Shown: positions 1,366 to 28,172 of the stretch, piece by piece | Numbering within the stretch: position 1 is the stretch's first letter | How the letters are laid out: each line of letters starts with the position of its first letter | DNA from: Alphaproteobacteria bacterium | GTDB taxonomy: Bacteria; Pseudomonadota; Alphaproteobacteria; Ferrovibrionales; Ferrovibrionaceae | Assembly (NCBI GenBank): GCA_017307375.1 | Contig: JAFKFH010000007.1 | Coordinates: forward strand, 1 to 64,000 | DNA length: 64,000 nt | Direction: 5' to 3' | Position numbers and translations under genes: made by a program | Notes under the pieces: generated by a model | The model's input: the letters and a program-made list of their open reading frames with translations, nothing else | The model's database searches: none | What the model was told of the DNA's origin: nothing

Positions 1366-1671
1366 ATGAGTACTGCCGATTGGCGATCGGCGGACGCGTA
1401 TCAAGAGCTGCGGTCGCTCGACGCGCCGGCCTTCGCATTCGAATTTCTTCGCCGTAACCCCGAGTTCCGCGCAGACCACGCGCGGCTGGCGCGCAAGGCG
1501 CGCGGCCGGCCGCTTGAGGTCAGTGACGCCGATGCGTTCGCAGAACGCTGGGGGGTTCGATTTCGAAGACGGATTGCCGGAGCTTCCAGCAAGCGACGTT
1601 CGATGGACGGCCAAGGTACTTCCCAGTCTTGTCACGCTAACAAGAGCGGCGGAAGGCCTCGTCAATCCTAG
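1366..1671 (+). CDS. DUF6499 protein, upstream half of split FseA-like excision activator
   Basis: The N-terminal 65 residues carry the DUF6499 pattern (ADWRSADAYQELRSLD, then FAFEFLRRNPEFRADH), ending AERWGVRF. After that the frame runs into basic, unstructured sequence and stops at 1671. The downstream gene, in the +1 frame, continues exactly where the family continues (EDGLPELPAS, then WTAKVLPSLV). In ICEMlSymR7A the equivalent ORFs are joined by a programmed +1 ribosomal frameshift to make FseA, the activator of excisionase transcription. Start ATG 1366 has GGGGAGG about 9 bases upstream; an ATG at 1324 in the same frame has no such site. Confidence 0.7.
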   Translation: MSTADWRSADAYQELRSLDAPAFAFEFLRRNPEFRADHARLARKARGRPLEVSDADAFAERWGVRFRRRIAGASSKRRSMDGQGTSQSCHANKSGGRPRQS

Positions 1672-2131
1672 CTTCATGATCGCCGCAAGCCTTATCGCCG
1701 CTCTCTCGCAAGTGGACCTGGAGGGCTTTGTTGACCTTGCCGGCGCGCATATGCGGATCGAAGGGCTCGATATGTCTGGACCGTACGCTGCCCTCCTGCC
1801 GCTCGATCAGCTCTTCGAGATCCGTGTCGCCGCCGCGCTCCGCCTGTGGCGGGCCTTGAACGGCCGCCGACCTGGATCTGATCCCGGAGCCCTCACAGCC
1901 GACCGCCAGGCGCGCTTCATCCTCGCACTCCGCGCGCTCGATGCGCGCCTCCTCGGGACGACCTATCCGGACATCGCGGCCGGGCTTTTCGACGCCGCGC
2001 CGATCTCGAAACGCGACTGGATCTCCCACGAGTTGCGCGACCAGACAGGCCGCCTCGTGCGCCTCGGATTCAAGTTGATGAGAGGCGGCTACCGGCAGCT
2101 TCTCGTCTATCCCTACCGGCGCCGAATCTGA
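1514..2131 (+). CDS. DUF2285 protein, downstream half of split FseA-like excision activator
   Basis: The coding content runs from about 1565 to 2131. It ends in a clear DUF2285 domain: LRALDARLLGTTYPDIAAGLF, then SHELRDQTGRLVRLG and GGYRQLL. The open frame can be read back to a TTG at 1514 or an ATG at 1532, but neither has a ribosome binding site and the translated sequence before 1560 is a shadow of the upstream gene. Expression by +1 frameshifting from the 1366 gene would give a protein of about 254 residues. It probably activates the rdfS-like gene 130 bases downstream (inference from ICEMlSymR7A). Confidence 0.7.
   Translation: MRSVTPMRSQNAGGFDFEDGLPELPASDVRWTAKVLPSLVTLTRAAEGLVNPSFMIAASLIAALSQVDLEGFVDLAGAHMRIEGLDMSGPYAALLPLDQLFEIRVAAALRLWRALNGRRPGSDPGALTADRQARFILALRALDARLLGTTYPDIAAGLFDAAPISKRDWISHELRDQTGRLVRLGFKLMRGGYRQLLVYPYRRRI
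1550..1567 (+). other. Candidate +1 programmed ribosomal frameshift site
   Basis: Frame 1 reads TGG GGG GTT CGA TTT CGA; slipping +1 at TTT C (1561-1564) or at GGG G (1552-1555) moves into the DUF2285 frame. A run of six G (1550-1555) sits 5 bases before TTT and could act as a Shine-Dalgarno-like stimulator, as in prfB. CGA is a plausible slow codon in the A site. I cannot tell which slip is used. Confidence 0.5.
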
Positions 2132-6592: not shown

Positions 6593-8263
6593 CGACGCGC
6601 GACGACGACCTGCGCATCCGGCCCGGCCGCATCCAGCATGGCAACCGCGGCGGCAAACGTCCGCAGACATTCGTCGGCGAGGTGATGCGGGCCGCGAAGA
6701 GCGGTCTCGATCCGGCTGCGCTCGAATGCCCGGCGCGTCGTCACCAAGGCGCGCGTCGTCCGCCACCAGGGTCCCCGATTCCGCTCGGCGCCTTTGCCGA
6801 AGCACATCGCCTATCTCAAACGCGAAGGCGTCACCAAAGACGGTCAGCCGGCGCGGATGTTCGATGCGGCCGGAGACGAAGCCGACGAGCGTGCGTTCGC
6901 CGAGCGCTGCAAGGACGATCGCCACCATTTCCGCTTCATCGTCTCTCCAGAGGATGCGGCCGAGATCGGCGACCTCAAGACGTTCACGCGCGAGCTGGTC
7001 GCCGACATGGAAAGGGACCTCGGCACCCAGCTCGACTGGGTCGCCGTCGATCACTGGAACACCGACAATGCCCATGTCCACCTCCTGATCCGCGGCCGCG
7101 CCGATGACGGCCAGGATCTGGTGATCAGCCGCGACTATATCAGCCGAGGAATCCGCGACCGGGCCGCCGAGCGGATCACGCTCGAACTTGGTCCGCGCAC
7201 TGAACCGCAAATCCACAGCGCGCTTCAACGCGAGGTGGAGGCCGAGCGCTGGACAAGTCTCGATCGGGCGCTGCGCGACATTTCGGACGAATGCGGCGGC
7301 GTCGCAGATCTTCGGCCTGGTCCGAACGCCGAGGATCCGGAGCTGCGTCGACTGTTGCTCGGACGGGCGGCCAAGCTCGAACGTCTCGGCTTGGCCGATC
7401 CGGTTGGCCCGGCCTGCTGGACCCTCAAGCCCGGCCTCGACGGAACGCTGCGCCAGCTCGGTATCCGCGGCGACATCATCAAGACGATGCACCAAGCCAT
7501 GAGCCGAAGCGGATCAGAACCGGACGTCAGCCGCTTCGCGCTGCATGGCGACGAGCCTTCCCATCCGGTGCTGGGCCGACTCGTCCAGCGTGGTCTCGAT
7601 GATGAGCTCAAGGGCACGGCCTACGTCATCGTCGCCGGCGTCGATGGCCATACCCACCATTTGAGGTTTGCAGACCTCGAATTCACCGGCGATGCCACGC
7701 CCGGCGCGATCGTCGAGGTGCGCGCTTATGACGATCCCGATGGACGACGACGGCTATCGCTCGCGACCAGGTCGGATCTGTCCATTTCTGATCAGGTCGG
7801 GGCATCGGGAGCGACCTGGCTCGATCGTCAGCTTCTTGCGAAAGACCCACCGCTCAGCGGCAGCGGCTTCGGCGCCGAAGTCCGCGACGCGATGGATGCC
7901 CGCGCTGATTACCTGGTCGAGGAAGGCCTGGCCAGACGACAGGGCCAGCGCGTGATCTTCGCCCGCGATCTCCTTTCGACACTCCAGCGGCGCGAGCTTG
8001 AGGAGGCCACGGCCAGATTATCAGCCGACACGGGTCTGGCGTACCACCCGGCCGCTGAAGGCGAGCGTGTCGCTGGCGTTTATCGCGAACGGGTGACACT
8101 CGCGTCGGGGCGCTTCGCCATGATCGATGATGGGTTGGGATTCCAACTCGTGCCGTGGCGTCCGGCTTTGGAAAAGAACCTCGGCCGCGAAGTCCGCGGC
8201 GTCATGGCGCCGGGCGGACGAGTCGACTGGGACCCGGGACGGAAACGGGGACTGGGCCTGTGA
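6589..8263 (+). pseudogene. Relaxase (VirD2-like, DUF3363), frameshifted near the N-terminus
   Basis: From ATG 6589 the frame encodes the normal relaxase start (IRPGRI, then RPQTFVGEVMRAAK). It loses the family sequence at about 6700. The relaxase resumes in the +1 frame as RLRSNARRVVTKARVV, then APLPKHIAYLKREGV, and runs intact to 8263. The resumed part holds the metal-binding His motif DHWNTDNAHVHLLIRG, and a DUF3363 C-terminal half ends GGRVDWDPGRKRG. The Gly/Ser-rich linker usual between MRAAK and ARRVV is missing, so a deletion of some tens of bases that is not a multiple of three is the likely cause. A TTG at 6794 could restart translation at PKHIAYL, but that would lose the N-terminus. 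Confidence in family is high; loss of function is inferred. Confidence 0.75.
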
Positions 8264-8369: not shown

Positions 8370-10352
8370 ATGAACCCGACCAAAATACTCTGGCTGCAAG
8401 TCTTCGTTGTGTGCTCGACCACACTCGGCTTCGTCTGGGCCGCGACGCAATGGACGGCGTGGCAGCTTGCCTTCCAGCCGCAGCTCGGCAGCCCCTGGTT
8501 CTCGCTCTTCGGATGGCCGGTCTATTTCCCGGCGGCCTTCTTCTGGTGGTGGTTCTCTTTCGACGCTTACGCACACGACATTTTCGTCACCGGCGGCTTC
8601 ATCGCTGGCGCAGGCGGGGTCGCTGCCTTCGTCGTCGCTGTCGCCATGTCGGTCTGGCGTGCGCGCGAGGTAAAGCGCGCCACGACCTACGGTTCGGCTC
8701 GCTGGGCCGAGGAACGCGAGATCCGCGCAGCCGGCCTTCTTCACCCAGACGGCGTGTTGCTCGGCCGCTGGCACGGAGCCTACCTCCGTCATCATGGACC
8801 CGAGCATGTGCTGTGTTTCGCACCGACCCGAAGCGGCAAGGGCGTCGGTCTTGTTGTTCCGACGCTGCTGACCTGGCCGGGAAGCTGCATCGTCCATGAC
8901 ATCAAGGGGGAGAACTGGACGCTCACCGCCGGCTGGCGTGCGCGGTTCGGCCGCGTGGTCCTGTTCGATCCGACCAATCCGCAAAGCAGCGCTTACAATC
9001 CTTTGCTCGAGGTCCGGCGCGGCGAGTATGAAGTCAGAGACGTCCAGAACATCGCCGACGTGCTGGTTGATCCCGAAGGGGCGCTCGAACGCAGGAACCA
9101 TTGGGAGAAGACCAGCCACTCGCTTCTGGTCGGCACGATCCTGCATGTCCTTTACGCCGAACCCGACAAGACGCTCGCCGGCGTCGCCAATTTCCTCTCC
9201 GATCCGAAGCGACCAATCGAGAAGACGCTTCGGGCGATGATGACCACGCCGCATCTCGGCGAGAAGGGAGTCCATCCCGTCGTCGCCAGCGCCGCGCGAG
9301 AGCTGTTGAACAAGAGCGAGAACGAACGCAGCGGCGTACTGTCGACCGCGATGTCCTTCCTGGGCCTCTATCGAGATCCGGTGGTCGCGGCGGTCACACA
9401 ACGCTGCGACTGGCGCATCCGCCACCTGGTCGAGGCTGAGCATCCTGTGACGCTCTATCTCGTCGTGCCACCCTCGGACATCAGCCGCACGAAACCGCTC
9501 GTGCGCCTCATCCTCAACCAGATCGGAAGACGGCTAACCGAAGAGCTAGAGAACAAGCGGCGGCGACATCGCCTGCTGCTGATGCTCGATGAGTTTCCCG
9601 CGCTCGGCAGGCTCGACTTCTTCGAGTCGGCATTGGCGTTCATGGCGGGCTATGGATTGAAATCCTTCCTGATCGCGCAGTCGCTGAACCAGATCGAGAA
9701 GGCGTACGGTCAGAACAATTCCATCCTGGACAATTGCCACGTGCGCGTCTCGTTCGCCAGCAACGACGAACGCACAGCGAAACGCGTGTCGGATGCACTT
9801 GGCACGGCCACCGAAATCCGAGCGATGAAAAACTATGCCGGCAGCCGACTCAGTCCGTGGCTTGGACATCTGATGATCTCCCGGCAAGAAACCGCGCGGC
9901 CGCTGTTAACTCCCGGCGAGATCATGCAACTCCCGCCCGACGACGAGATCGTCATGATATCGGGGAGTGCGCCCGTCCGGGCGAAGAAAGCTCGGTATTA
10001 CGAAGACCCCGAGCTCGCCGGGCGGATTCTTCCGCCGCCCAGATCATCGGGCGGAAACGCTGTTCTTCAACCGCCAGCCCCCAACACGTCCCAGGTGAAT
10101 ACCTGGAGCGGCGCGATCGCGTCAGCGCCAACCGCCGCAGAGACGGACGATCCGGACAATGCGGGAATCCGGCGCGAACCCGAACTTCCGGACCACGAGG
10201 AGATTGTTCCCGAGCCACGAAAGCCGGTGCAGGAATTCGAGCCCGTCGAGGACGAGCCAGACGACGACGCCCAGCGCCAGCGGATCATGCAGCGCAATTT
10301 CGGCAGCGCGCGACAAATCTCGCTCGACGCGGACGATGACATGCAGATGTAG
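8370..10352 (+). CDS. traG: TraG/VirD4 type IV coupling protein
   Basis: The 660-residue ATPase has three N-terminal membrane helices in its first 100 residues. Walker A TRSGKGVGLVVPTLL follows near residue 155 and Walker B LLMLDEFPALGRL near residue 410. SFLIAQSLNQIEKAYG and NCHVRVSFASND are typical of TraG. It links the relaxosome to the secretion channel at the inner membrane and powers DNA export. The acidic, proline-rich last 100 residues are likely disordered. It starts about 107 bases after the relaxase; the gap 8264-8369 holds no gene I can support. Confidence 0.93.
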   Translation: MNPTKILWLQVFVVCSTTLGFVWAATQWTAWQLAFQPQLGSPWFSLFGWPVYFPAAFFWWWFSFDAYAHDIFVTGGFIAGAGGVAAFVVAVAMSVWRAREVKRATTYGSARWAEEREIRAAGLLHPDGVLLGRWHGAYLRHHGPEHVLCFAPTRSGKGVGLVVPTLLTWPGSCIVHDIKGENWTLTAGWRARFGRVVLFDPTNPQSSAYNPLLEVRRGEYEVRDVQNIADVLVDPEGALERRNHWEKTSHSLLVGTILHVLYAEPDKTLAGVANFLSDPKRPIEKTLRAMMTTPHLGEKGVHPVVASAARELLNKSENERSGVLSTAMSFLGLYRDPVVAAVTQRCDWRIRHLVEAEHPVTLYLVVPPSDISRTKPLVRLILNQIGRRLTEELENKRRRHRLLLMLDEFPALGRLDFFESALAFMAGYGLKSFLIAQSLNQIEKAYGQNNSILDNCHVRVSFASNDERTAKRVSDALGTATEIRAMKNYAGSRLSPWLGHLMISRQETARPLLTPGEIMQLPPDDEIVMISGSAPVRAKKARYYEDPELAGRILPPPRSSGGNAVLQPPAPNTSQVNTWSGAIASAPTAAETDDPDNAGIRREPELPDHEEIVPEPRKPVQEFEPVEDEPDDDAQRQRIMQRNFGSARQISLDADDDMQM

Positions 10353-10354
10353 CC

Positions 10355-10792
10355 GTGCGCACGAAGCACACCTTTCGGCTTCCACCCGACCTGGCTACAA
10401 GGCTCGCCGATTACGCCGCCCGCAAGCGCGTGCCGCAGGCGTTGATCGTCGAGGCAGCGCTCGCCTCTTATCTTTCGCCCGATGCCGCGGACCGACTCGA
10501 AGCGGCGCTCGCGCGACGCCTGGACCGTATGGTCCGCGACATGGAGCGCATCGAGCGCCACGTCACGATCTCGAATGAAGCGCTCGCGGTGTTCGTCCGG
10601 TTTTGGCTGACCAGCACGCCGCCGCTGCCTGACACGGCGCTTGCCGCCGCGCAAACAAAAGGACGAGAGCGCTACGAAGGTTACATCGAAGCGCTCGGCC
10701 GTCGTCTCGCGCGCGGTCACAAACTAGCTGACGAGGTGATTCGCGACGTGCCAGCGCAAAAGGAGGGTTCAGCAGACACGCAGTCAGAATAG
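10355..10792 (+). CDS. CopG-like ribbon-helix-helix protein, conjugation cluster
   Basis: The 145-residue protein opens with an RHH motif (KHTFRLPPDLATRLADYAARK, then ALIVEAALASYL). It continues into a helical domain with RLEAALARRLDRMVRDMERIERH. This small regulator is normally found between traG and trbB in rhizobial ICEs and may bind relaxosome or trb promoter DNA; that role is inferred. Translation starts at GTG 10355, two bases after the traG stop. The 139 bases that follow contain a GCCTCC-ACA-GGAGGC hairpin (10900-10914) and probably the trb promoter. Confidence 0.8.
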   Translation: MRTKHTFRLPPDLATRLADYAARKRVPQALIVEAALASYLSPDAADRLEAALARRLDRMVRDMERIERHVTISNEALAVFVRFWLTSTPPLPDTALAAAQTKGRERYEGYIEALGRRLARGHKLADEVIRDVPAQKEGSADTQSE

Positions 10793-10931
10793 CGATCGTC
10801 CTTCTCGCTTGTCATTCTATCCCAGAGCCCTCCCGCCTCCTTGTTGTTGTTGCGGAGTCCCAGTTCCGGCTCTTTCTACTCAACCCCGCTGACATCTGCG
10901 CCTCCACAGGAGGCTAATTTGCGGGGCTCTT

Positions 10932-11897
10932 GTGACGACGATCTCCCTCCGATCTGAAGTATTCGCCCGAGGCGCGCGCATGCTGCGCACGGCGCTTGGT
11001 CCGGCGATCTCCGGCTATCTCGAAGATCCCAGCATCGTCGAGGTGATGCTCAACCCTGACGGTCGCCTCTGGATCGATCGGCTGTCAGGCGGTCTTGAAG
11101 ACACCGGCTGTCGCGTCACGCCCGCGGACGCCGAGCGCATCGTGCGCCTGGTCGCGCACCATGTCGGGGTCGAAGTGCATGCCGGCAGCCCGCGCGTCTC
11201 GGCGGAATTGCCGGAAAGCGGGGAGCGGTTCGAGGGCCTGGTGCCGCCCGTGGTGGCTGCGCCGTGCTTTGCCATCCGGCGGCCGGCCGTCGCCGTTTAC
11301 ACGCTCGGCGACTACGTCGAGGCCGGCATCATGTCGGCCGACCAGGCCGAGCTGCTCCGCGCGGCCGTGCGCGACCGAAAGAACGTGCTGGTCGCCGGCG
11401 GGACGAGCACCGGCAAGACGACGCTGGTCAACGCGATCCTCGCAGAAGTCGCCAAGACCGGCGACCGCATCGTGCTCATCGAGGATACGCGCGAGTTGCA
11501 ATGCGCCGCGCCGAACCTCGTGGCGCTGCGCACCAAGGACGGGGCTGCGTCGCTGTCTGATCTGGTCCGCTCGTCGCTGCGCCTGCGGCCCGACCGCATC
11601 CCGATCGGCGAGGTTCGCGGGGCAGAGGCGCTCGATCTTCTGAAAGCCTGGGGCACGGGACACCCCGGGGGCGTGGGCACGCTGCACGCAGGCTCCGCCA
11701 TCGGCGCACTGCGCCGGCTCGAACAGCTCATCCAGGAAGCCGTGGTCACCGTTCCGCGCGCGCTCATCGCCGAGACGATCGACCTCATCGCGGTCCTCGC
11801 CGGCCGCGGCTCCGCGCGCCGGCTCGCCGAGCTCGCCGCGGTGAAGGGCCTCTCGCCCGCCGGCGACTACGTCCTCACCCCCGCAGGAGAACCGTGA
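10932..11897 (+). CDS. trbB: TrbB conjugal transfer ATPase
   Basis: The 321-residue hexameric secretion ATPase of the VirB11/PulE group has Walker [15 protein letters not shown] near residue 155. The Asp box [12 protein letters not shown] follows, then the His box [10 protein letters not shown]. It supplies energy for pilus assembly and substrate transfer at the cytoplasmic face of the inner membrane. The start is a GTG at 10932; the family alignment begins near [16 protein letters not shown], so a downstream ATG at 10980 is possible. It overlaps trbC by one base. Confidence 0.93.
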
Positions 11898-12220
11898 TGT
11901 TAATCAAGGATGCCCGCCGTGCGTTCGCCACGGCAACCGCCTTCGTCTTCGTCGCCCTCGCGACCGCGCCGGCCTATGCGGCCGGATCGAACATGCCGTG
12001 GGAGCAGCCGCTCAACCAGATCCTGGAGAGCATCCAAGGGCCCGTGGCCAAGGTCGTGTCGGTGATCATCATTATCGTCACCGGTCTGACGCTCGCCTTC
12101 GGCGAGACCAGCGGCGGCTTCCGTCGCCTCATTCAGATCGTCTTCGGCCTCAGCATCGCCTTCGCAGCGTCGAGCTTCTTCCTGACCTTCTTCCAGTTCG
12201 GCGGCGGGGTGACGGTGTGA
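11897..12220 (+). CDS. trbC: TrbC, conjugative pilin
   Basis: The 107-residue prepilin has an export signal (FATATAFVFVALATAPAYAAG) and two hydrophobic helices (VVSVIIIIVTGLTLAFGE and LIQIVFGLSIAFAAS) separated by a short polar loop, as in VirB2/TrbC pilins. In RP4 the pilin is trimmed and cyclised by TraF, whose gene is at 5.0 kb. ATG 11897 overlaps the trbB stop by one base; a GTG one codon upstream is also possible. Confidence 0.9.
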   Translation: MLIKDARRAFATATAFVFVALATAPAYAAGSNMPWEQPLNQILESIQGPVAKVVSVIIIIVTGLTLAFGETSGGFRRLIQIVFGLSIAFAASSFFLTFFQFGGGVTV

Positions 12221-12489
12221 TGGAGCAAGATGGCGTCATCGCCGGCTTCTATGCGCCCGTTCACCGAGCGTTGACCGAGCCGATCCTCTTGGGCGGCGCG
12301 CCGCGCGCCGTGGCGATCGTGAACGGCACGCTTGCTGCCGCGATCGGGCTCGGTCTTCGGCTCTGGATCGTCGGCGGCCTCATCTGGCTTGTCGGTCACA
12401 TCGCCGCCGTTTGGGCGGCGAAGCGTGACGCCGCCTTCGTCGACGTCGTGCGTCGGCATCTGCGTTATCCGCAGCACATGGTCTCGTGA
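12220..12489 (+). CDS. trbD: TrbD, VirB3-like inner-membrane protein
   Basis: The 89-residue protein has the VirB3/TrbD layout: a conserved N-terminal FYAPVHRALTEPILLGGAPR, then two adjacent membrane helices (AIVNGTLAAAIGLGL and IVGGLIWLVGHIAAVWA), and a basic tail RRHLRYPQHM. It works with the TrbE ATPase in pilus assembly. ATG 12220 overlaps the trbC stop by one base, and trbE starts 10 bases downstream. Confidence 0.9.
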   Translation: MEQDGVIAGFYAPVHRALTEPILLGGAPRAVAIVNGTLAAAIGLGLRLWIVGGLIWLVGHIAAVWAAKRDAAFVDVVRRHLRYPQHMVS

Positions 12490-12499
12490 GGTTCGCCCA

Positions 12500-14932
12500 A
12501 TGATGAACCTTGCCGAGTATCGTCGCCATAACCAGAGCCTCGCCGACTTCCTGCCGTGGGCGGCGCTCGTCGCCAAGGGCGTTGTTCTCAACAAGGATGG
12601 CTCCTTCCAGCGCACCGCACGCTTTCGCGGTCCAGACTTAGATTCTTCCACGCCTGCCGAGCTGGTGGCCATCACGTCGCGTCTCAATAACGCGTTGCGT
12701 CGCCTTGGTTCCGGCTGGGCCGTGTTCATTGAGGCCCAGCGTGTGCCGGCGCACAGGTATCCGTCAACTCAATTTCCGGATCCCGTTTCGGCGCTGGTCG
12801 ATGCCGAGCGTCGAGCCCAATTCGAAGAAGAAGGCGCGCATTTCGAGAGCGGCTACTTCCTGACACTGCTCTGGCTGCCGCCCGCCGATGACGCGGCCCG
12901 CGCGGAAGCTTGGCTCTATGAGAACCGCGCCCAGGGCGCCGCCGACTGGCGTGCCACGCTCGAAGGCTTCGTCGACCGCACCGATCGCGTGCTCGCGCTG
13001 CTCGAAGGCTTCATGCCGGAATCGGATTGGCTCGATGACGCCGAGACCCTGACCTACCTGCATTCCTGCATCTCGACGCGGCGCCAGCGCGTGCGCGTGC
13101 CGGAAACGCCGATGTACCTCGACGCCATCCTGGTGGACGAGGACCTGACGGGTGGCCTCGAACCACGGCTCGGCCGCGCACATCTGCGCACGCTCACCAT
13201 CATGGGCTTTCCATCACAGACCTGGCCGGGCCTGCTCGACGACCTCAATCGCCTGGCGTTTTCCTATCGCTGGGCGACACGCGCCATCTGCCTCGACAAG
13301 ACCGACGCGGCCAAGCTCCTCGGCAAGATCCGCCGTCAGTGGTTCGCCAAGCGCAAGAGCATCATGGCGATCCTCAAGGAGGTGATGACCAACGAGGCGT
13401 CGGTGCTGATGGACTCCGACGCCGCCAACAAGGCGCTCGATGCCGACGCCGCTCTGCAAGAACTTGGCACCGACCTCGTCGGCGAGGCCTACGTCACCGC
13501 CACTGTTACCGTCTGGGACGATGATCCGCGGATCGCGGACGAGCGCCTTCGCCTGGTCGAGAAGGCCATTCAGGGCCGCGACTTCACCTGCATGCGCGAA
13601 GGCGTCAACGCGATCGAAGCCTGGCTTGGGTCTCTCCCAGGGCATGTCTACGCCAATGTCCGGCAGCCGCCGATCTCCACGCTCAACCTCGCGCACATAA
13701 TGCCGTTTTCGGCGGTTTGGGCCGGGCCGGAACGGGACGAGCACTTCCAGGCGCCGCCGCTTCTCTTCGCCAAGACCGAGGGATCGACCCCGTTCCGCCT
13801 CAGCCTACATGTCGGGGATGTCGGCCACACCTTGATCGTCGGCCCGACGGGCGCCGGCAAGAGTGTGCTGCTCGCGTTGATGGCCTTGCAGTTCCGGCGC
13901 TATGCCGGTGCACAGGTCTTCGCCTTCGACTTCGGCGGCAGCATCCGGGCGGCGGCGCTCGCGATGGGCGGCGATTGGCACGATCTCGGCGGAGCGCTCT
14001 CCGACAGCGCCGCCGAGCCCGTCGCGCTCCAACCGCTCGCGCGGGTCGATGATCCCGGAGAGCGCGCGTGGGCCGCCGAATGGGTCGCGGCGCTCCTCGG
14101 TCGCGAGTCCGTCACCGTCACTCCGGAACTGAAGGAACACCTATGGTCAGCGCTGACTTCGCTTGCGTCCGCGCCTATCCAGGAGCGCACCATCACCGGG
14201 CTCTCGGTGCTCCTGCAATCAAATGCCCTGAAACAGGCGATCCAGCCCTACACCGTGGCAGGCCCCTGGGGACGACTGCTCGACGCGGAAACGGAGCGGC
14301 TCGGCGAAGCCGAAGTCCAGGCTTTCGAAACCGAAGGGTTGATCGGCGCGGGCGCGGCTCCAGCCGTCCTATCCTATCTCTTCCATCGCATCGAAGATCG
14401 CTTCGACGGCCGACCCACCTTGCTCATCGTCGACGAGGGTTGGCTCGCCCTCGACGATCCCGGCTTCGCCGGGCAATTGAGAGAGTGGCTGAAGACGCTT
14501 CGGAAAAAAAATGCCAGCGTCATCTTTGCCACGCAGTCGCTTGCCGACATCGACGGCAGTGCGATCGCACCAGCCATCATCGAGAGCTGCCCGACCCGCA
14601 TCCTGCTTCCCAACGAGCGCGCGCTCGAGCCGCAGATCGCGGCGATCTACCAGCGCTTCGGTCTCAACGATCGCCAAATTGAGATTCTGAGCCGCGCGAC
14701 GCCGAAGCGCGAATATTACTGCCAGTCGCGGCGCGGCAATCGCCTATTCGAACTCGGGCTGTCCGAAGTCGCGCTCGCCTTCACCGCCGCCTCGGCGAAA
14801 TCCGATCAGACCGCCATCGAAGAGCTGCTCGCGGAACACGGCCGCGGCGGCTTCACCGCCGCCTGGCTGCGTCGAAAGGATCTCGACTGGGCAGCGGACA
14901 TGCTCACCCACAACCAGGAGACCACGTCATGA
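12500..14932 (+). CDS. trbE: TrbE, VirB4-type transfer ATPase
   Basis: The 810-residue ATPase starts MMNLAEYRRHNQSLADFLPW, the usual TrbE opening. The N-terminal CagE/TrbE/VirB domain precedes the motor domain. Walker A is IVGPTGAGKSVLLAL near residue 450 and Walker B is LLIVDEGWLAL near residue 645, followed by KNASVIFATQSLADI. It is the largest ATPase of the mating-pair system and pulls pilin from the membrane. The reading frame is intact at full length. It ends in an ATGA overlap with trbJ. Confidence 0.94.
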   Translation: MMNLAEYRRHNQSLADFLPWAALVAKGVVLNKDGSFQRTARFRGPDLDSSTPAELVAITSRLNNALRRLGSGWAVFIEAQRVPAHRYPSTQFPDPVSALVDAERRAQFEEEGAHFESGYFLTLLWLPPADDAARAEAWLYENRAQGAADWRATLEGFVDRTDRVLALLEGFMPESDWLDDAETLTYLHSCISTRRQRVRVPETPMYLDAILVDEDLTGGLEPRLGRAHLRTLTIMGFPSQTWPGLLDDLNRLAFSYRWATRAICLDKTDAAKLLGKIRRQWFAKRKSIMAILKEVMTNEASVLMDSDAANKALDADAALQELGTDLVGEAYVTATVTVWDDDPRIADERLRLVEKAIQGRDFTCMREGVNAIEAWLGSLPGHVYANVRQPPISTLNLAHIMPFSAVWAGPERDEHFQAPPLLFAKTEGSTPFRLSLHVGDVGHTLIVGPTGAGKSVLLALMALQFRRYAGAQVFAFDFGGSIRAAALAMGGDWHDLGGALSDSAAEPVALQPLARVDDPGERAWAAEWVAALLGRESVTVTPELKEHLWSALTSLASAPIQERTITGLSVLLQSNALKQAIQPYTVAGPWGRLLDAETERLGEAEVQAFETEGLIGAGAAPAVLSYLFHRIEDRFDGRPTLLIVDEGWLALDDPGFAGQLREWLKTLRKKNASVIFATQSLADIDGSAIAPAIIESCPTRILLPNERALEPQIAAIYQRFGLNDRQIEILSRATPKREYYCQSRRGNRLFELGLSEVALAFTAASAKSDQTAIEELLAEHGRGGFTAAWLRRKDLDWAADMLTHNQETTS

Positions 14933-15675
14933 TCCGTCACCGCTTGCGCGCCTTGCTCATCGCAGGCGCCGCCGCTTTCACCATTACGGCCTTCGCCAGC
15001 GGACCGGCGCGTGCGCAATGGATCGTGTTCGATCCGACCAATTATGCGCAGAACATCCTGACCGCCGCGCGTGAGCTTCAGCAGGTCAACAATGAAATCC
15101 AGATGCTGGAGAACCAGGCGACGTCGCTGATCAATCAGGCGCGCAATCTCGCAAGCCTGCCGTACTCGTCGCTCACGCAGCTTCAGCAGCAGATCACCCA
15201 GACCCAGCAGCTCCTCGCGCAGGCGCAGCGCATCGCCTACAGCGTCTCAAGCATCGACCAGTCGTTCACGCAGACCTATCCGCAGGCCTATTCCAGCGGG
15301 ACGTCGTCGCAGCAGCTTCTCACGGATGCGAAGAGTCGCTGGCAGAACGCACTCGCCGGGTTCCAAGATACGATGCGCGTGCAAGCCGGCGTTGTGAGCA
15401 ATCTCAACACCACGCGGACGCAGATCAACGCTTTGGTGTCCTCCAGCCAGTCGGCGACCGGCGCGCTGCAGGCCGCACAGTCGGGCAATCAGCTCGTGGC
15501 GCTTCAGACCACGCAGCTTGCGGACCTGACCGCGCTGATGGCGTCGATCGCACGCGCGCAGAGCCTCGATGCCGCGCGGACCCTTGAGACGCAGGCGCAG
15601 GCACAAGCGCAGACACAGGCATTCCTCAACTACGGCGCTGGTTACCAAGCCGGCTCCGCGCAGATGTTCCATTGA
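14929..15675 (+). CDS. trbJ: TrbJ, VirB5-like periplasmic transfer protein
   Basis: The 248-residue secreted protein has a cleavable signal (LLIAGAAAFTITAFASGPARAQ) and then WIVFDPTNYAQNILTAARELQQVNNEIQ, the hallmark of TrbJ. The remainder is long helices rich in Gln and Ala, consistent with a coiled-coil pilus-tip or adhesin component. Both ends overlap their neighbours (trbE by 4 bases, trbK by 1). Confidence 0.92.
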   Translation: MIRHRLRALLIAGAAAFTITAFASGPARAQWIVFDPTNYAQNILTAARELQQVNNEIQMLENQATSLINQARNLASLPYSSLTQLQQQITQTQQLLAQAQRIAYSVSSIDQSFTQTYPQAYSSGTSSQQLLTDAKSRWQNALAGFQDTMRVQAGVVSNLNTTRTQINALVSSSQSATGALQAAQSGNQLVALQTTQLADLTALMASIARAQSLDAARTLETQAQAQAQTQAFLNYGAGYQAGSAQMFH

Positions 15676-15989
15676 TGCGAACCCGGCTTCTCAATCTGCC
15701 TGCTGTCGGCCGGGCTGTCGGCTTTTTGCTTGTCGCCATCGCGATCGTCGCGGCGGCACTGCACTTCCACACATCGCCTCCACGCCTCGAGCCGCGTGCG
15801 ATGGAGAAACACACGCCCGACTCGCTCGCCGAAGAGCTCAAGCGGTGTCAGCTCATCGCCGACCAGGCCAAGGACGATCCGGCCTGCGAGGCGGCCTGGG
15901 CTGAAAACCGCCGCCGCTTCTTCACCTATACGCCGGCCTCCGGACCGAAGAACCCGACTCCGGCTCCAGCCAAGAACACCGACAGGTAA
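15675..15989 (+). CDS. TrbK-alt, putative entry exclusion protein
   Basis: The 104-residue protein has one N-terminal membrane helix (VGFLLVAIAIVAAALHF). A short periplasmic domain follows, containing ELKRCQLIADQAKDDPACEAAWAENRRRFF, typical of the TrbK-alt family that replaces lipoprotein TrbK in these clusters. A role in preventing redundant entry is assigned by family. The two cysteines in the domain may form a disulfide. Confidence 0.8.
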   Translation: MRTRLLNLPAVGRAVGFLLVAIAIVAAALHFHTSPPRLEPRAMEKHTPDSLAEELKRCQLIADQAKDDPACEAAWAENRRRFFTYTPASGPKNPTPAPAKNTDR

Positions 15990-15994
15990 GCATC

Positions 15995-17257
15995 ATGGGC
16001 GGCACGGGAGTCATCGACAATTTCCTGGGCACCTTCACCCAGTATATCGATTCCGGCTTCGGCCTCGTTCAAGGTGACGTGCGCTGGCTCGCCAGCGTCC
16101 TCATCGCCATCGACATCACGCTGGCGGGGCTCTTCTGGGCGATGGCGCCCGACGAGGACGTGCTCGCGCGCCTGATCCGCAAGACGCTCTATATCGGCCT
16201 CTTCGCCTTCATCATCGGCAACTACAACAATCTCGCGCAGATCATCTACAACAGCTTCGCCGGCCTCGGGATCAAGGCCGGTGGCGGCACGATGAGCGCT
16301 GCGCAGCTCCTGCAGCCCGGCAAGATCGCCGAGGTCGGGATCGATGCCGGCAAGCCAATCCTCACCGCCATCTCCGGTATGATGGGCTTCACCAGCGTCT
16401 TCGCCAATCTGGTGCAGATCGTCATTCTTCTGGTCGCGTGGCTGATCGTCGTCATCAGCTTCTTCGTCATGGCGATCCAGCTCTTTGTGAGTTTGATCGA
16501 GTTCAAGCTGACGACGTTGGCCGGTTTCGTACTCGTGCCGTTCGGGCTCTTTGGCCGCACGGCCTTCCTCGCCGAACGGGTGCTGGGCAACGTGGTGTCC
16601 AGCGGGATCAAGATTCTCGTGCTCGCCGTCATCATCGGCATCGGCTCCACGATCTTCAATCAATTCACCAGCGGCTTCAACAATCCGCCGACCATTTCCG
16701 ACGCGCTGACGCTGATCCTCGCAGCGCTCTCGCTCCTTGGCCTCACGATCTTCGGTCCAGGCATCGCCAATGGCCTGATCGCGGGCGGACCGCAGCTCGG
16801 CGCCGGCGCGGCTGTCGCGACAGGATTGGGAGCGGCCGGGATCGGAGCGGCCGGCATTGCGGCGACCGCCGGGGGTGTCGCCGCGGCCGGCGGCGCGATC
16901 GCCGGGACGGCGCGCGCGGGAGCCGCGGTCGCGGGCGGCGCCAGCGCCGCATATCGCGCGGGTGGGGCAGCGGGTGTCGCCCAAGCTGCCGGCTCAGTCG
17001 CCATGAGCCCACTGCGCCGCGCCGCCAGCAGCCTTCAAGAAAGCTTCGCCTCTGGCGAGCGTGCCGTCATGAGCGGCGGCGCGCGCTCGTCGTCATCCGC
17101 CGGCGCGTCCGCCGCGTCGGACAGCCCGCCAGCATGGGCCCAGCGCATGAAGCGCGGCCAGACCATCAACCGCGGCGTCACCGCCGCCGACCACGCAATC
17201 CGCTCCGGTGATCGGGCAAGCGGCGGGCATCAGGTCGATCTTTCCGAGGGGGAATAG
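15995..17257 (+). CDS. trbL: TrbL, VirB6-like polytopic channel protein
   Basis: The 420-residue protein opens GGTGVIDNFLGTFTQYIDSGF and has at least six membrane helices between residues 30 and 265, as in TrbL/VirB6. The next segment is a Gly/Ala-rich stretch (about residues 265-330). The C-terminus is hydrophilic and contains PPAWAQRMKRGQTINRG, a motif shared by rhizobial TrbL. It forms the inner-membrane part of the DNA channel. A 5-base gap separates it from trbK and 3 bases from trbF. Confidence 0.92.
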   Translation: MGGTGVIDNFLGTFTQYIDSGFGLVQGDVRWLASVLIAIDITLAGLFWAMAPDEDVLARLIRKTLYIGLFAFIIGNYNNLAQIIYNSFAGLGIKAGGGTMSAAQLLQPGKIAEVGIDAGKPILTAISGMMGFTSVFANLVQIVILLVAWLIVVISFFVMAIQLFVSLIEFKLTTLAGFVLVPFGLFGRTAFLAERVLGNVVSSGIKILVLAVIIGIGSTIFNQFTSGFNNPPTISDALTLILAALSLLGLTIFGPGIANGLIAGGPQLGAGAAVATGLGAAGIGAAGIAATAGGVAAAGGAIAGTARAGAAVAGGASAAYRAGGAAGVAQAAGSVAMSPLRRAASSLQESFASGERAVMSGGARSSSSAGASAASDSPPAWAQRMKRGQTINRGVTAADHAIRSGDRASGGHQVDLSEGE

Positions 17258-17260
17258 CTC

Positions 17261-17941
17261 ATGTTCCGACGATCGACCGTGCGCTATGGCAAGACGCCGG
17301 ACGCGGAGACGCCATATCAAAAGGCCGGCCAGGTCTGGGACGAGCGGATTGGCTCCGCGCGCGTTCAGGCCAAGAACTGGCGCCTGGCTTTCTTCGGCGC
17401 ACTCGTTCTCAGCGGTGGGCTCGCCGGCGGCCTGGTCTGGCAATCGGCCCGCGGCACCATCACGCCTTGGGTTGTGCAGGTTGACAAGCTCGGCCAGGCC
17501 CAGGCCGTCGCGCCCGCCACCGCGGACTACCAGCCGACCGACCCGCAGATCGCGTGGCACTTGGCGCGCTTCATCCAGGAAGTGCGCGGCATCCCCGCCG
17601 ACCCCGTGGTGCTGCGTCAGAACTGGCTCGACGCCTACAACTACGTCACAGACAAGGGGGCGCTCGCGCTCAATGACTATGCGCGGACGAGCGATCCGTT
17701 TTCCAAGGTCGGCAAGAACCAGGTCTCCGTCGACGTCGCGAGCGTCATCCGCGCCTCCGACTCCAGCTTTCGCGTCGAATGGACGGAGCGTCATTACATC
17801 GACGGCGCGCTCGCCTCGACTGAGCGATGGAGCGCCATCCTCACCATCGCGCTGCAGATGCCGACCGACGCCGATCGGCTGAAGAAGAATCCGCTCGGCG
17901 TCTACGTCCACGCCCTCAATTGGTCAAAGGAGCTCGGCTGA
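17261..17941 (+). CDS. trbF: TrbF, VirB8-like transfer protein
   Basis: The 226-residue bitopic inner-membrane protein has an N-terminal cytoplasmic segment with TPYQKAGQVWDERIGSARVQ. One helix follows (WRLAFFGALVLSGGLAGGLVW). The periplasmic NTF2-like VirB8 domain begins at ITPWVVQVDKLGQ and includes FRVEWTERHYIDGALAS. It nucleates assembly of the mating-pair complex. The last base of its stop is the first base of trbG. Confidence 0.93.
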   Translation: MFRRSTVRYGKTPDAETPYQKAGQVWDERIGSARVQAKNWRLAFFGALVLSGGLAGGLVWQSARGTITPWVVQVDKLGQAQAVAPATADYQPTDPQIAWHLARFIQEVRGIPADPVVLRQNWLDAYNYVTDKGALALNDYARTSDPFSKVGKNQVSVDVASVIRASDSSFRVEWTERHYIDGALASTERWSAILTIALQMPTDADRLKKNPLGVYVHALNWSKELG

Positions 17942-18927
17942 TGCGCCCGCTTGCGATCTCGTCGCTCTTACTTGCGTCTGTCTCCCTCGGCGCCTGCGCC
18001 ACAGCCTGGAAACCGCCGCAGATCAGCTACGACAACACGCCGAAGCCCGCGGTGCTGCAGGCCGAGCCGCCCAAGCCCATTCAGATCGTCGAGGTGCCGA
18101 AGCCGTTGCCGCTGCCCGGACAACTCAAGCCGCTGCCCGGGAATACGAAGCGCGCTCCCGAACCTGCGGATCCGCATGCTCGCGTCGAGCAGGCCAATGG
18201 CGCGGCCCGCGTCCAGCCGACACGGGCAGGCTATCTCAACGCTATCCAGGTCTACCCCTTTTCCGATGGCGCGCTGTATCAGGTCTATGCCGCGCCGGGC
18301 CAAATCACCGACATCGCGCTCGAGCCGGGCGAGCAGTTGACGGGCTCAGGGCCCGTCGCTGCCGGAGATACCGTGCGGTGGATCATCGGCGACACCGAGA
18401 GCGGCGCCGGGCCAGCCAAACGTGTCCACATCCTGGTGAAGCCCACCCGTGCGGATCTCATCACCAACCTTGTCATCAATACAGACCGTCGGACCTATCA
18501 CCTCGAGCTGCATTCCGACGACAAGACGTATATGGCGTCGGTCTCTTGGGCTTATGCGCAGGATCAGCTCATCGCGCTGCGCCAGCAGAATGCGGCCGCC
18601 GAGGCCGCTGCCCCCGTCGCAACCGGCGTCGACATCAATGCACTGAACTTCCGCTATCGCATCGAGGGCGATACTCCGCCGTGGCGGCCGCTGCGCGCCT
18701 TCGATGACGGCCGGCAGGTGTTCATCGAATTCCCGACCGGCATCTCACAGGGTGAGTTGCCACCGCTCTGGGTGATCGGCGCGGAAGGCGACGGCCAGCT
18801 CGTCAACTACCGTGTCCGCGGCAATCACATGATCGTCGACCGCCTGTTCGCTGCGGCGGAGCTGAAGCTCGGCGGCAAGCACCAGGAGCTGGTGCGCATC
18901 GTCCGCACCGATGGGAGGCCGCGGTGA
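17941..18927 (+). CDS. trbG: TrbG, VirB9-like outer-ring protein
   Basis: The 328-residue periplasmic protein has a lipoprotein-like signal (LLLASVSLGACATAW). A proline-rich linker follows, then the VirB9/CagX domain: AIQVYPFSDGALYQVYAAPGQ, GDTESGAGPAKRVHILVKP and RRTYHLELHSDDKTYMASV. The C-terminal lobe with NFRYRIEG and VNYRVRGNHMIVDRLF is complete. With TrbI and TrbH-type partners it forms the core complex. It overlaps trbI by ATGA. Confidence 0.92.
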   Translation: MRPLAISSLLLASVSLGACATAWKPPQISYDNTPKPAVLQAEPPKPIQIVEVPKPLPLPGQLKPLPGNTKRAPEPADPHARVEQANGAARVQPTRAGYLNAIQVYPFSDGALYQVYAAPGQITDIALEPGEQLTGSGPVAAGDTVRWIIGDTESGAGPAKRVHILVKPTRADLITNLVINTDRRTYHLELHSDDKTYMASVSWAYAQDQLIALRQQNAAAEAAAPVATGVDINALNFRYRIEGDTPPWRPLRAFDDGRQVFIEFPTGISQGELPPLWVIGAEGDGQLVNYRVRGNHMIVDRLFAAAELKLGGKHQELVRIVRTDGRPR

Positions 18928-20061
18928 CGGACGAAGCCAGGGATGACGTGGGGCCGAGCGCGGCCGCACGTCCGGCTGAGGAGATGCGCTTGCGCGCCAA
19001 GCGACCGCCGGTAACCCGGCTGTCCCGCAAGGTCCTGCTTGGCGTCGGTGCCGCCGCGGCCATTGGCATTGGAGGCGCACTGCTCTTCGCCTTGAAGCCG
19101 CAGCACCAGACAACCGGCGCCGAACTCTTCAACACCAACAACCGCAACACGCCAGATGGTCTCGCGAACCTGCCGCGCGATTATACGGGGCTGCCAAAGC
19201 CCGTGCCACAGCTTGGACCGCCGCTGCCCGGCGATCTCGGCAAGCCCATCCTCAACGCCGGCGCGCCTTCGCCCAGCATGCCAATGCCGGGACCGACACC
19301 GGAGGAGCAACGGCTCGCTCAGGAGATGGAAGCCGCCCGCACCAGTCATCTCTTCGCGACAACGAACGTCGTCGCGCCGAGCATGCCGATCGCGCCATCT
19401 CCAACGGCTCTCTCGCCGGGACTGACGCCGGCGAGCACATCGTCTGATCTCACGTCGCAAGATCACAAACTCGCATTCCTCAATGGCAACATCGACCGCA
19501 GAACAACGAGCCCCGATCGCGTCCAGCCGCCAGCAAGCCCCTATGTATTGCAGGCAGGCGCCGTAATTCCGGCATCGCTGATCACAGGCCTGCGGTCCGA
19601 TCTGCCCGGACAGGTTACCGCGCAGGTGACCGAGGACGTCTACGACAGTCCGACGGGCAAGACCTTATTGATTCCGCAGGGGTCGCGCCTCGTCGGCCAG
19701 TATGATGCGCAGATCGCATTTGGCCAGTCGCGCGCCTTGCTCGTCTGGAACCGCCTCATCATGCCGAAACACCGAAGGCTATGCCGGGCTTGAGGACGAG
19801 GTCGACAACCATTGGGGCATGCTGTTCAAGGCTGCGATCCTCTCCACCATCTTGTCCGTCGGCGCCGAGGCTGGAACGAGCAATAGTGAAAACAACCTTG
19901 CCCAGGCGATCCGGATGGGCGCGTCGCAGAGCTTCAACCAGGCTGGCGAACAGATCGTAGGCCGCTCCCTCAATATCCAGCCGACGATCACAATCCGGCC
20001 GGGCTTCCCCGTGCGGGTCATGGTCACACACGACCTGGTCCTCGAACCCTACAAAGGCTAG
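18924..20061 (+). pseudogene. trbI: TrbI, VirB10-like core protein, frameshifted in the C-terminal domain
   Basis: From the GTG start at 18924 the frame encodes a normal TrbI: cytoplasmic tail, one helix (VLLGVGAAAAIGIGGALLFAL), proline-rich region, then YVLQAGAVIPASLITGLRSDLPG and LLVWNRLIMP. It then breaks into KHRRLCRA and stops at 19793. The family sequence continues in the +1 frame as TEGYAGLEDEVDNHWG to 20061 and ends VTHDLVLEPYKG. The roughly 14 residues that usually separate LIMP from GYAGLED are missing, so the cause is probably a deletion of about 43 bases. The lost C-terminal half forms the outer-membrane pore, so the channel would fail if this is real. Confidence 0.8.
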
Positions 20062-20281: not shown

Positions 20282-21169
20282 CTAAAGCAGCCCGCGATCC
20301 TTCGCTTCATCGCGCATAAACGCGACAAACCGTCCTACAACGGGTTCTTCGCATTCAGGAAGCCACACGAGATTCACACAAAATGATGCGTTCGCCTCCG
20401 AAATCGGCCTGAAGACCACGTCAGGAAATCCGAGCTCGGCTTGGCTCTCTGCCGCGAGCGTCACGCCAAAGCCCGCTGCCACAAACGCGAGAATATATTG
20501 CTTGCTGGCGGCGTGCGATTGAAAGTCTACGTTCCTGCCAAGAAGCGAGGCGAAGAATTCGCGCTGCGCCTGACTTTCGCCCCAGCCTTCGACAAGAACC
20601 GTCTCGCCCGACAATTCCTTCCAACCAAGCGCCTTACGCCTCGCCAGGGAATGTTTCGCGGGAAGCGCCGCCATCAGCCGCTCACTATAGATGGGCAGCA
20701 TCGCCGCATGCGGCCACAACGCGAAGCTCGGGACAAACGCGGCGTCAAGTCGTCGATCGGCCAGCGCGGCGGCGATCTCCCGTTCATGCATCTCGAATTG
20801 CACCACCGAAACACCAGGGTATCGTCCGTGCCAGCACCGCAACAAGTCCCCCAGAGGCTTTCCGATCGGCGGCATTCGTAGGCCCAGACGAATCTCGCCC
20901 GTCGTGCCAAGGCCGTTGTGATGACCTGCGGCCTTCACGGCATCGACTTCAGCGAGGACACGTCTAATGTGCCGCATGACCGTCTGTCCGCTCGGCGTGA
21001 GCCGCACACCGGCACGGTTGCGCTCGAAGAGGGTGAGGCCAAGCTCATCCTCAAGCCGTGCGATACGCCGACTGATCGTCGACGCATGCAGCCCGAGCAC
21101 GAGCGCTGCACGCGCAAAGTTTCCTGCATCCACCGCCGCCGTCACAAACTGGAGGTCGGCGAGGTCCAT
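20282..21169 (-). CDS. LysR-family transcriptional regulator
   Basis: The 295-residue protein has the N-terminal winged HTH of LysR regulators (LQFVTAAVDAGNFARAALVLG, HASTISRRIARLEDELGLTLFERN). A substrate-binding domain follows, with EIRLGLRMPPIGKPLGDLLRC. A LysR gene closing the trb cluster is common in these ICEs. It lies 51 bases downstream of the Na/Pi cotransporter gene on the same strand and might be co-transcribed with it. The inducer is unknown. Confidence 0.88.
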   Translation of the reverse strand: MDLADLQFVTAAVDAGNFARAALVLGLHASTISRRIARLEDELGLTLFERNRAGVRLTPSGQTVMRHIRRVLAEVDAVKAAGHHNGLGTTGEIRLGLRMPPIGKPLGDLLRCWHGRYPGVSVVQFEMHEREIAAALADRRLDAAFVPSFALWPHAAMLPIYSERLMAALPAKHSLARRKALGWKELSGETVLVEGWGESQAQREFFASLLGRNVDFQSHAASKQYILAFVAAGFGVTLAAESQAELGFPDVVFRPISEANASFCVNLVWLPECEEPVVGRFVAFMRDEAKDRGLL

Positions 21170-21220
21170 GTCATAAGACCGCGGCGTGACGATCCTGCAA
21201 ATTGATCGCGACCACCGCTA

Positions 21221-22957
21221 TCATTGCGCGCCTTGCAGCTCGGATTCGTTGGCTTCTTCTTCTGCAGTTCCTTCTCGCGCCGGTGTCCCATCAGCGGTGC
21301 CGGCACCGTTCAGGATCGGATATGCCAGCGCTGCGATGTGCGAGTGAACGCGCCGGAGGTCTCTGACAATGCGCAGAAACTGACCGCCATCTTCGGCGAC
21401 ACGAGCGACTCCCTCGCCAGCATCCGCTCGCGCCGTGGTGGCCGCGACCCGCAGCAACTGCACATGGAGCGCGGTCGCACGCGCCTCCAGTCGCCGCAGA
21501 GCGCTCTTTCGCGAGATGAGCCGGTTCGCCTCGGCGGGATCACGGGTCAGAAACACTGCAAGCCCCATGTGGAGGCTTTCCAGGATTTCGGCATTCATCG
21601 AAACGATGAGATCGCGTTCGTCCTTCGCAAACGGCCTCCCCCGCTTGATCCGTTTGACCACGAATTCGATGAGGTTGTTGGCGACGACATCGCCAACGTG
21701 CTCGAGATTGATGACGGCTGACAATATCTCCTGGACCCGGGCGCCTTCGCTATCGTCATGCAACGGCTGCTCATTTCCGAGATCTGCCAGATAGCTGCGT
21801 ATCGCGGCTCCAAGACGGTCGACAGACCGATCCATCCGGCTGATCGCGGTGGCGCGCCGAGGATCGTCTTGTTGGAACACCTCCGAAGCGCCCTTCAACA
21901 TTGCTTCGACCATGTCGCCCATGCGAAGCGTCTCGCGCGCGGCATTCGCCAACGCGACGGTCGCCGCCCCTAATCCTGCCTCCTCCAAGTAGATTGGTTT
22001 TCCGGGATCATCAGGCGCCGGCGGGTCGGGAAGTACGCGGACGAGCAGCCGGGCCAGCCAATGAGACGGCCCGATAAACACCGCTGCAAGGATCAGGTTG
22101 AACGCGGTGTGGAAGTTCACCACGATCCGCCCCGGCGCAGGATCGATGTGGGCGAGAAGCGGCACGCATATTGCCAGCAACGGAAGCGTCACGACCGCGC
22201 CCACGATTCGAACCAGGCAGTTGCCGAGCGGAAGACGACGAGCAACCGGTGAACCCGCCTCAAAGAGTGCGGGCAATGTGCCGCCGATGTTGGCGCCGAC
22301 AACGAACGCCAGCGCGCCGATCGGCGAAACGGTCTGACTCGCAGTCAGCGACACGATAAGAAGCACGACCGCCACGCTGGAATGACAAGCCCAGGTGAGC
22401 AGCGTTGCCACCAACACCGCAAGGAGAGGCTCGTTGCCGATTGCAGCGAGAACGTTTTTCAGCAAAGGCGCGTTCTCGATTGGCGCAAACTCATGCGCCA
22501 TCCCCGACAAGGCCAGCAACATCAGTCCCAGCCCGATCGCGATTCGCCCGGCATTGCGCAGCCGATCATCGTCGAACGAGCGGAAAGCCATGACCCCGAG
22601 CAGGACCAAAGGAGGGCCGACGACACCGGCGTCGAACGACAGCACCTGCGTAACCAGCGTGGTTCCGACGTTGGCGCCCAGCATCACCACCAAGGCGGGC
22701 CCGAGCCCGATAAGACCGTTCGCCGTAAATGCGGAGGCCATGAGACCCGTCGCGGTGCTGCTTTGCAGAAGCGCCGTAATGCCGACGCCGGCAAGAAACG
22801 CCCGCCACCGCCGCGTCAGATTGTGCTCCAGCCATATCCGAAGGACATGGCCGAAGCCCCGCTGGACGCCGGTCGTCACCATATGAGTGCCCCAAAGGAG
22901 CAATCCGACGTAGCCGGCGAGTTCGAATAGAACGACGGTCCCGGTCATCAGAACCAT
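21221..22957 (-). CDS. Na/Pi cotransporter family protein with PhoU-like domain
   Basis: The 578-residue inner-membrane protein carries two PF02690-type repeats with the duplicated QSSTATGLMASAFTANGLIGL / HSSVAVVLLIVSLTASQTVSP motif and GANVGTTL / GANIGGTLPALF. The C-terminal 220 residues are helical and PhoU-like (LGAATVALANAARETLRMGDMVEAML). The family imports phosphate with sodium, but many members of this architecture are uncharacterised. It follows the porin gene by 35 bases and so is likely to form an operon with it. The start could be ATG 22957 or the ATG three codons later, which has better ribosome binding site spacing. Confidence 0.85.
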   Translation of the reverse strand: MVLMTGTVVLFELAGYVGLLLWGTHMVTTGVQRGFGHVLRIWLEHNLTRRWRAFLAGVGITALLQSSTATGLMASAFTANGLIGLGPALVVMLGANVGTTLVTQVLSFDAGVVGPPLVLLGVMAFRSFDDDRLRNAGRIAIGLGLMLLALSGMAHEFAPIENAPLLKNVLAAIGNEPLLAVLVATLLTWACHSSVAVVLLIVSLTASQTVSPIGALAFVVGANIGGTLPALFEAGSPVARRLPLGNCLVRIVGAVVTLPLLAICVPLLAHIDPAPGRIVVNFHTAFNLILAAVFIGPSHWLARLLVRVLPDPPAPDDPGKPIYLEEAGLGAATVALANAARETLRMGDMVEAMLKGASEVFQQDDPRRATAISRMDRSVDRLGAAIRSYLADLGNEQPLHDDSEGARVQEILSAVINLEHVGDVVANNLIEFVVKRIKRGRPFAKDERDLIVSMNAEILESLHMGLAVFLTRDPAEANRLISRKSALRRLEARATALHVQLLRVAATTARADAGEGVARVAEDGGQFLRIVRDLRRVHSHIAALAYPILNGAGTADGTPAREGTAEEEANESELQGAQ

Positions 22958-22992
22958 CCCCCGTCATCTGGCAAGTACACGCGGTCCATGGC

Positions 22993-25113: not shown

Positions 25114-25193
25114 CAGCAGCTCCACTGATCACGGGACGAGCAAGCCATCTCGTGATCGACGTGAGGCCGCTCTATTTTCGGGGTGTTGGGGGG

Positions 25194-25217
25194 CTGCGTG
25201 AGTATTCACTCACGCAG
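25194..25217. promoter_or_regulatory. 10-bp perfect inverted repeat upstream of porin gene
   Basis: CTGCGTGAGT, spacer ATTC, ACTCACGCAG. It lies about 80 bases upstream of the porin start on the minus strand and just before an AGGAGG site on the plus strand. There is no T-tract. The TGAGT-N4-ACTCA core is of the size bound by TetR-family repressors, but no such regulator gene is adjacent. Confidence 0.5.
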
Positions 25218-25235
25218 CAACTAGGAGGTTCGGGC

Positions 25236-25584: not shown

Positions 25585-25629
25585 TGCACGTCTCCTCAGT
25601 AGACTTCGCTGCTGGCCGACCGAGCCAGG

Positions 25630-28167: not shown

Positions 28168-28172
28168 TTTTT

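Follow-up and report, generated by a model that had tools for sequence, protein, structure and literature searches.

Positions 1366–2131 on the forward strand of the 64,000-nucleotide stretch of Alphaproteobacteria bacterium contig JAFKFH010000007.1 analysed here (the window) hold two overlapping open reading frames (ORFs), which raise the question of whether they are read as one gene through a +1 ribosomal frameshift, as two genes, or as one gene that has been broken. The first ORF (1366–1671, msi172-like) encodes a zero-frame product of 101 residues with DUF6499 (PF20109, E = 5.2e-20; 72 bits compared to a cut-off of 23.8), and the second (1514–2131, +1 frame, msi171-like) encodes DUF2285 (PF10074, RovC_DNA-bd, E = 5.3e-30). 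Within the overlap lies the cassette TGG GGG GTT CGA TTT C (1549–1564), followed in the window by GAA GAC, and its pattern, TGGGGGNTNCGATTTY, occurs only once in the window. When the C at 1564 is skipped after TTT (1561–1563), such that the second ORF is read from base 1565 onward, 66 and 188 residues are joined losslessly into a protein of 254 residues carrying both domains, and this sequence aligns with its nearest relatives without a gap over the junction. The seamless +1 join of the two domains put forward in the original prediction is borne out by both profile matches and by a switch of codon phase at the site. The feature is very probably the +1-frameshifted fseA of an integrative conjugative element (ICE) or related plasmid of the ICEMlSymR7A type. 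This form of control is already known from rhizobial symbiosis islands, and the window provides a well-supported new example of it rather than a new mechanism.

In the original report (Ramsay 2015), tRNA-Phe reportedly slips from UUU to UUC, with support from mass spectrometry. A survey of 4709 FseA homologues, about 61% of them split into two ORFs by a conserved +1 site, accompanies descriptions of FseA, QseM, and the FseA box in Jowsey 2023 (PMC10359603); the same frameshift is described in PMC5882170, PMC11963761, and PMC5009743, and fseA and qseM are reported from Mesorhizobium elements in PMC8627217. Like the window, FseA of ICEMlSymR7A (msi172–msi171) combines DUF6499 and DUF2285 in a +1 relation and has QseM and rdfS as partners (PMC10359603). 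Compared to ICEMlSymR7A, the window has helix-turn-helix (HTH), qseM-type, fseA, and rdfS-type genes in one row, and its motif has Val for Leu with a G-run of 6 instead of the more common 5. Domains, frames, conservation across species, and synteny, all observed directly, together with the slip codon, support the original assignment to an FseA made by +1 frameshifting in the manner of msi172/msi171.

The locus was placed in its family using part of the matches listed for DUF6499, 259 loci that reduced to 233 distinct places (the window's included), among which DUF2285 was in the +1 frame in 181, in one ORF with DUF6499 in 42, interrupted in the same frame in one, in a +2 relation in two, and absent in seven. 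The first pass over 118 loci (97 places) held 58 split, 32 in-frame, and one +2 locus, and six without DUF2285. The set combines broad draws, two families picked as hit-rich, and a small sample of the order (18 genomes), and is not an estimate of prevalence. Codon counts leave out the seven places without DUF2285, L059 and L247 (+2), and L185 (same frame, not one ORF), which was also removed from the in-frame codon comparison; four split loci in which the motif pattern is missing (L018, L052, L106, and L238) were read by eye and stand outside the codon tests, leaving 177 of the 181, and the non-redundant split set consisted of 157 loci. Codon expectations reflect codon use within the same genes, and as related sequences are not independent, significance is overstated and the size of the effect is what counts. 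In L059 and L247, the two halves stand in a +2 relation, with TTT C retained in L059, which may be a decaying copy, while in L185 the CGA TTT C motif is followed by a stop with DUF2285 as a separate ORF in the same frame, a possibly damaged arrangement.

The five nearest relatives (L002–L006), which come from other assemblies, all have the split at the codon where the window has it. Upstream of TTT, mismatches among these six sequences favour the third positions of frame 0 (350, compared to 154 and 148 at the other two positions), within the overlap downstream of TTT the third positions of the +1 frame are weakly favoured (293 compared to 205 and 198), and beyond the overlap they are strongly favoured (1114 compared to 439 and 383). 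A chance pair of ORFs is dismissed by this codon-phase pattern. The same relatives carry Phe or Tyr at the Trp position of an AWEFLRRN-like motif in DUF6499, which in the window reads AFEFLRRN, with Phe replacing Trp. On a FastTree phylogeny of 202 proteins, with several long branches and an unsure deep order, the in-frame, TTT, and TGT states required 17 changes compared to a mean of 47.4 for shuffled labels, and the nested sets that hold the window (2, 6, and 9 rows; support, 97–99) consist entirely of split TTT genes. The in-frame label (42 loci) changed 15 times, with seven changes forced by supported branches; on this tree, split and one-ORF forms of fseA have thus interchanged repeatedly, and frameshifting has been acquired or lost on several occasions.

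Alignment of the overlap, proposed as a check alongside the original prediction, revealed a nearly invariant slip codon and a family-wide G-run. The slip codon is TTT in 172 of the 181 split loci and TGT in nine (177 by motif, four by eye), with the next base C in 175 and T in six. Of the in-frame loci, 23 have a motif that can be aligned, with TTC (n = 15), TTT (n = 4), or TGC (n = 4) at the same position, and the others do not match the motif. In the 177 motif-bearing split loci, Phe at the slip position is always TTT (168/168, 49.5 expected; non-redundant, 153/153), the Gly preceding the slip is predominantly GGG (130/175, 22.3 expected, background 13%; non-redundant, 114/155), Arg immediately before the slip codon is predominantly CGA (81/100, 10.7 expected; non-redundant, 64/81), and Leu within the motif is often TTG or TTA (101/162, 19.1 expected; non-redundant, 91/142). 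By comparison, in-frame genes have GGG in 11 of 33 and CGA in none of 12 cases (Fisher's test compared to split genes, p = 2e-5 and 1e-7, respectively). When a residue other than Arg precedes the slip codon, the third base is A in only four of 76 cases, so the CGA preference looks like an effect of the codon rather than of the base. A run of five or six G residues occurs in 114 of the 157 non-redundant split loci, and because GGG is favoured in split genes, the G-run of the window is a family trait. The window has the commonest features of the cassette (TGGGGG, CGA, and TTT C), with Val for Leu extending the run to six G residues (1550–1555), which include the GGG codon at 1552–1554 and end five bases before TTT; CGA (1558–1560) is in the ribosomal exit (E) site while TTT is in the peptidyl (P) site of the slip sequence TTT C (1561–1564). 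As a yardstick, sixteen genes of the window use CGA for 6% of Arg, TTT for 19% of Phe, and GGG for 18% of Gly.

The G-run resembles a Shine-Dalgarno (SD) sequence, and its predicted duplex with the anti-SD sequence in the window is −10.7 kcal/mol; across the non-redundant split loci anti-SD pairing averaged −9.02 compared to −6.40 kcal/mol and was stronger in 124 of 157. Like fseA, prfB (RF2) has a purine-rich SD-like run upstream of a pyrimidine slip site and shifts in the +1 direction, but fseA has a sense codon after the slip codon (in frame 0, CGA in the window and CGC or CCC in 144/177). The host's own prfB (L260, 2524 down to 2509, minus strand) carries a classic +1 site, AGGAGG TCT CTT TGA C, and +1 shifting aided by an SD sequence can accordingly be expected of this host. 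The decoding of CGA relies on weak inosine-adenine pairing. It is a tentative possibility, and rather an unlikely one, that the 16-base cassette as a whole programs the shift instead of UUU-C alone, with the SD-like G-run and the E-site CGA loosening the holding of the frame enough for UGU-C to work in one clade.

The loci with TGT in place of TTT (L031, L202, L204, L205, L208, L211, L213, L217, and L219) account for two changes on the tree, with L031 standing apart from the other eight by sequence. Both halves are open in all nine, an rdfS-like gene follows fseA in all nine, and GGGGGTTRCGA is kept upstream in the eight loci other than L031. Synonymous codon differences outnumber non-synonymous ones in 13 of the 15 pairs among L204, L208, L211, L213, L217, and L219, for the N part and likewise for the C part, and the balance is more mixed when L202 or L205 is one of the pair. 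A tRNA-Cys shifted from UGU onto GUC could not pair, and re-pairing of the tRNA cannot explain a shift in these genes. They either reach the +1 frame in some other way, for which CCC C a little further downstream is a candidate in some of them, or have lost the fusion.

The other accounts of the locus differ in what they make of the overlap. Separate translation of the ORFs, yielding two distinct proteins, with the second begun at GTG 1523 or ATG 1532, gains from a weak SD-like GAGG at 1516–1519, three bases before the GTG and 12 before the ATG, which contradicts the statement in the original prediction that the second frame has no ribosome binding site. For the halves in Azorhizobium, own starts and stops and an absence of frameshifting are argued in PMC9601964. 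Against this, in 147 of the 157 non-redundant split loci a stop interrupts the +1 frame in the N-domain region, ahead of the slip site. In L005, L006, and L033, the second frame offers no ATG, GTG, or TTG after its last stop before the slip, and 47 of the 157 lack such a codon from this stop up to 30 bases beyond the slip. The synonymous choices of TTT and CGA are specific to split genes and that of GGG is stronger there, and since 42 of the 233 loci hold both domains as one ORF, fusion is a natural form; separate translation is very unlikely. The same 42 loci are what could lend weight to a base lost by mutation or sequencing error, leaving a dead gene, and an in-frame homologue of this kind had been named in advance as what would overturn the frameshift. 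None of the 42 is among the nearest relatives of the window, which sits in the supported sets of split TTT genes, and substitutions fall mostly at third positions in both halves. Because the nearest relatives are all split and codon phase changes at the site, a lost base or sequencing error is very unlikely.

The location of the slip was the other matter, as the original prediction had named both TTT C (1561) and GGG G (1552). The window does contain the latter, and GGG is a frequent codon throughout the family. Across the 155 non-redundant split loci, however, the Gly codon is followed by T in 59%, by C in 32%, and by G in 8%, and as G follows in so few, GGG G is not a family feature. The frame-0 residues from Gly to Phe are conserved, the codon between GGG and CGA varies synonymously in relatives (GTT, GTA, and GTG, with CGA after), and TTT is nearly invariant, which favours TTT C and makes a shift at GGG G extremely unlikely.

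Several observations weigh against a +1 shift at TTT C or against parts of the account given here. Some start codon in the +1 frame lies near the site in 110 of the 157 split loci, the window's included, the Azorhizobium halves cited above have been argued to do without frameshifting, and nine split loci lack the TTT slip codon. RNA structure was sought 3' of the slip site (bases 1565–1660), and folding was no better than in shuffled sequences (z = +0.56). GGG in in-frame genes (11/33, six of the 11 from one WGIS-type group) also exceeds the 13% background, and part of the preference may not concern the shift, while the stronger anti-SD pairing is a consequence of these GGG codons and no separate line of evidence. 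In prfB, the SD-like run ends three bases before the slip site (PMC12421855), compared to a gap of five in the window and six for the common G5 of the family, so that the SD-like run need not have its prfB role. The echo of the prfB stimulator claimed for the G6 run thus holds for its presence five bases before TTT and throughout the family, but not for the spacing. The gap is 2–3 when CGA is in the P site, so the G-run may exert its effect at the preceding step or do no more than stall the ribosome. Lastly, the pattern of the FseA box considered below was found four times in the window compared to 5.2 expected, and is not rarer than chance.

The gene neighbourhood of the probable +1-frameshifted fseA, on the forward strand throughout, fits the known circuit of HTH gene, qseM-type gene, fseA, rdfS-type gene, relaxase, and trb genes, as judged from domain matches and gene order. 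Upstream, a small HTH regulator (647–922; HTH_19, E = 0.006, and HTH_3, E = 0.009, both below the curated cut-off) is QseC-like by position only; in pMc1192 of M. ciceri, an HTH gene also adjoins the qseM-type gene, there on the opposite strand. It is followed by a predicted QseM-type antiactivator of 92 residues (974–1252) with a lone DUF2285 (PF10074, E = 3.3e-8) and without DUF6499, matching PDB 7uqt 'Quorum sensing master protein' (E = 5.3e-20), which we take to be QseM. An NMR (nuclear magnetic resonance) structure of QseM is reported in Jowsey 2023 (PMC10359603). The product is 74% identical to that of the equally placed gene of pGDIPal5II and 72% to that of pMc1192, and its net charge is −7 compared to +10 for the DUF2285 part of the window's FseA (last 112 residues), a difference in the same sense as in the published FseA/QseM pair (PMC10359603). 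Like the window, pMc1192 and pGDIPal5II (Gluconacetobacter diazotrophicus) have the qseM-type gene, split fseA, HTH gene, and replication initiator A in order, although in pGDIPal5II fseA and the HTH gene are separated by a gene with an antiporter annotation, and the DUF2285 halves of the two are only about 41% and 38% identical to that of the window.

Downstream of fseA, a candidate 28-bp FseA box (TGCGTT-N16-ATCGCA, 2150–2177) has the published layout of two inverted hexamers 16 bp apart (PMC10359603), with a similar repeat in L002 and L033 (5/6 and 6/6 pairs) and, by eye, TGCG with a CGCA-like arm in the upstream sequences of L003–L006; the shared position in some relatives is what would support this candidate. 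An rdfS-type, excisionase-like HTH gene (2264–2548; PF12728, HTH_17, E = 1.4e-7) occupies the same place as in pMc1192 and is followed in order by replication initiator A, ParA, DUF2840, signal peptidase, transglycosylase, an rlxS-like relaxase (6794–8263; DUF3363, E = 4e-90; Relaxase, E = 8e-4, below its cut-off), and a traG-like coupling protein with trb pilus genes (8370–20061; T4SS-DNA_transf, T2SSE, TraG P-loop, TrbL, CagX, and TrbI in six scanned proteins), an arrangement that closely resembles that of pMc1192. The window begins at the contig end, with the left part of the element outside the view. No integrase, TraR, or TraI was seen among the annotated proteins, which do not cover all genes of the window, and PF00765, for a LuxI-type synthase, was silent in this genome and equally silent in 14 control genomes, making the result uninformative. 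The region beyond the trb genes (20282–36700), up to where third-position GC (guanine plus cytosine) rises near 36.7 kb, holds genes for a LysR regulator, a porin, Na/Pi cotransport, Nramp and ABC (ATP-binding cassette) transporters, and a two-component system. These genes may be cargo of the element, the right end of which may lie close to 36.7 kb.

By analogy with the published relatives, most ribosomes would read 1366–1671 to give a short DUF6499 protein, while in a minority the tRNA-Phe on UUU (1561–1563) would slip +1 to UUC and continue in the second frame to give the 254-residue FseA. On the codon comparisons made here, the upstream G-run, through SD-like pairing with 16S rRNA, and the CGA in the E site would probably raise the rate of slipping. 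FseA would then bind the box that precedes the rdfS-type gene and activate excision and transfer, unless blocked by the adjacent QseM-type protein binding its DUF6499 part; in R7A, QseM binds the DUF6499 of FseA as well as TraR (PMC10359603).

In this account, only the extended cassette and the UGU clade might be new. The family comparison yields two testable stimulators, the G-run and the E-site CGA, and UGU, as a natural variant, could separate tRNA re-pairing from other +1 routes. For an alphaproteobacterium-like host from a sparsely sampled order, the locus provides a clear case of a recoding switch that limits the transfer of a mobile element.
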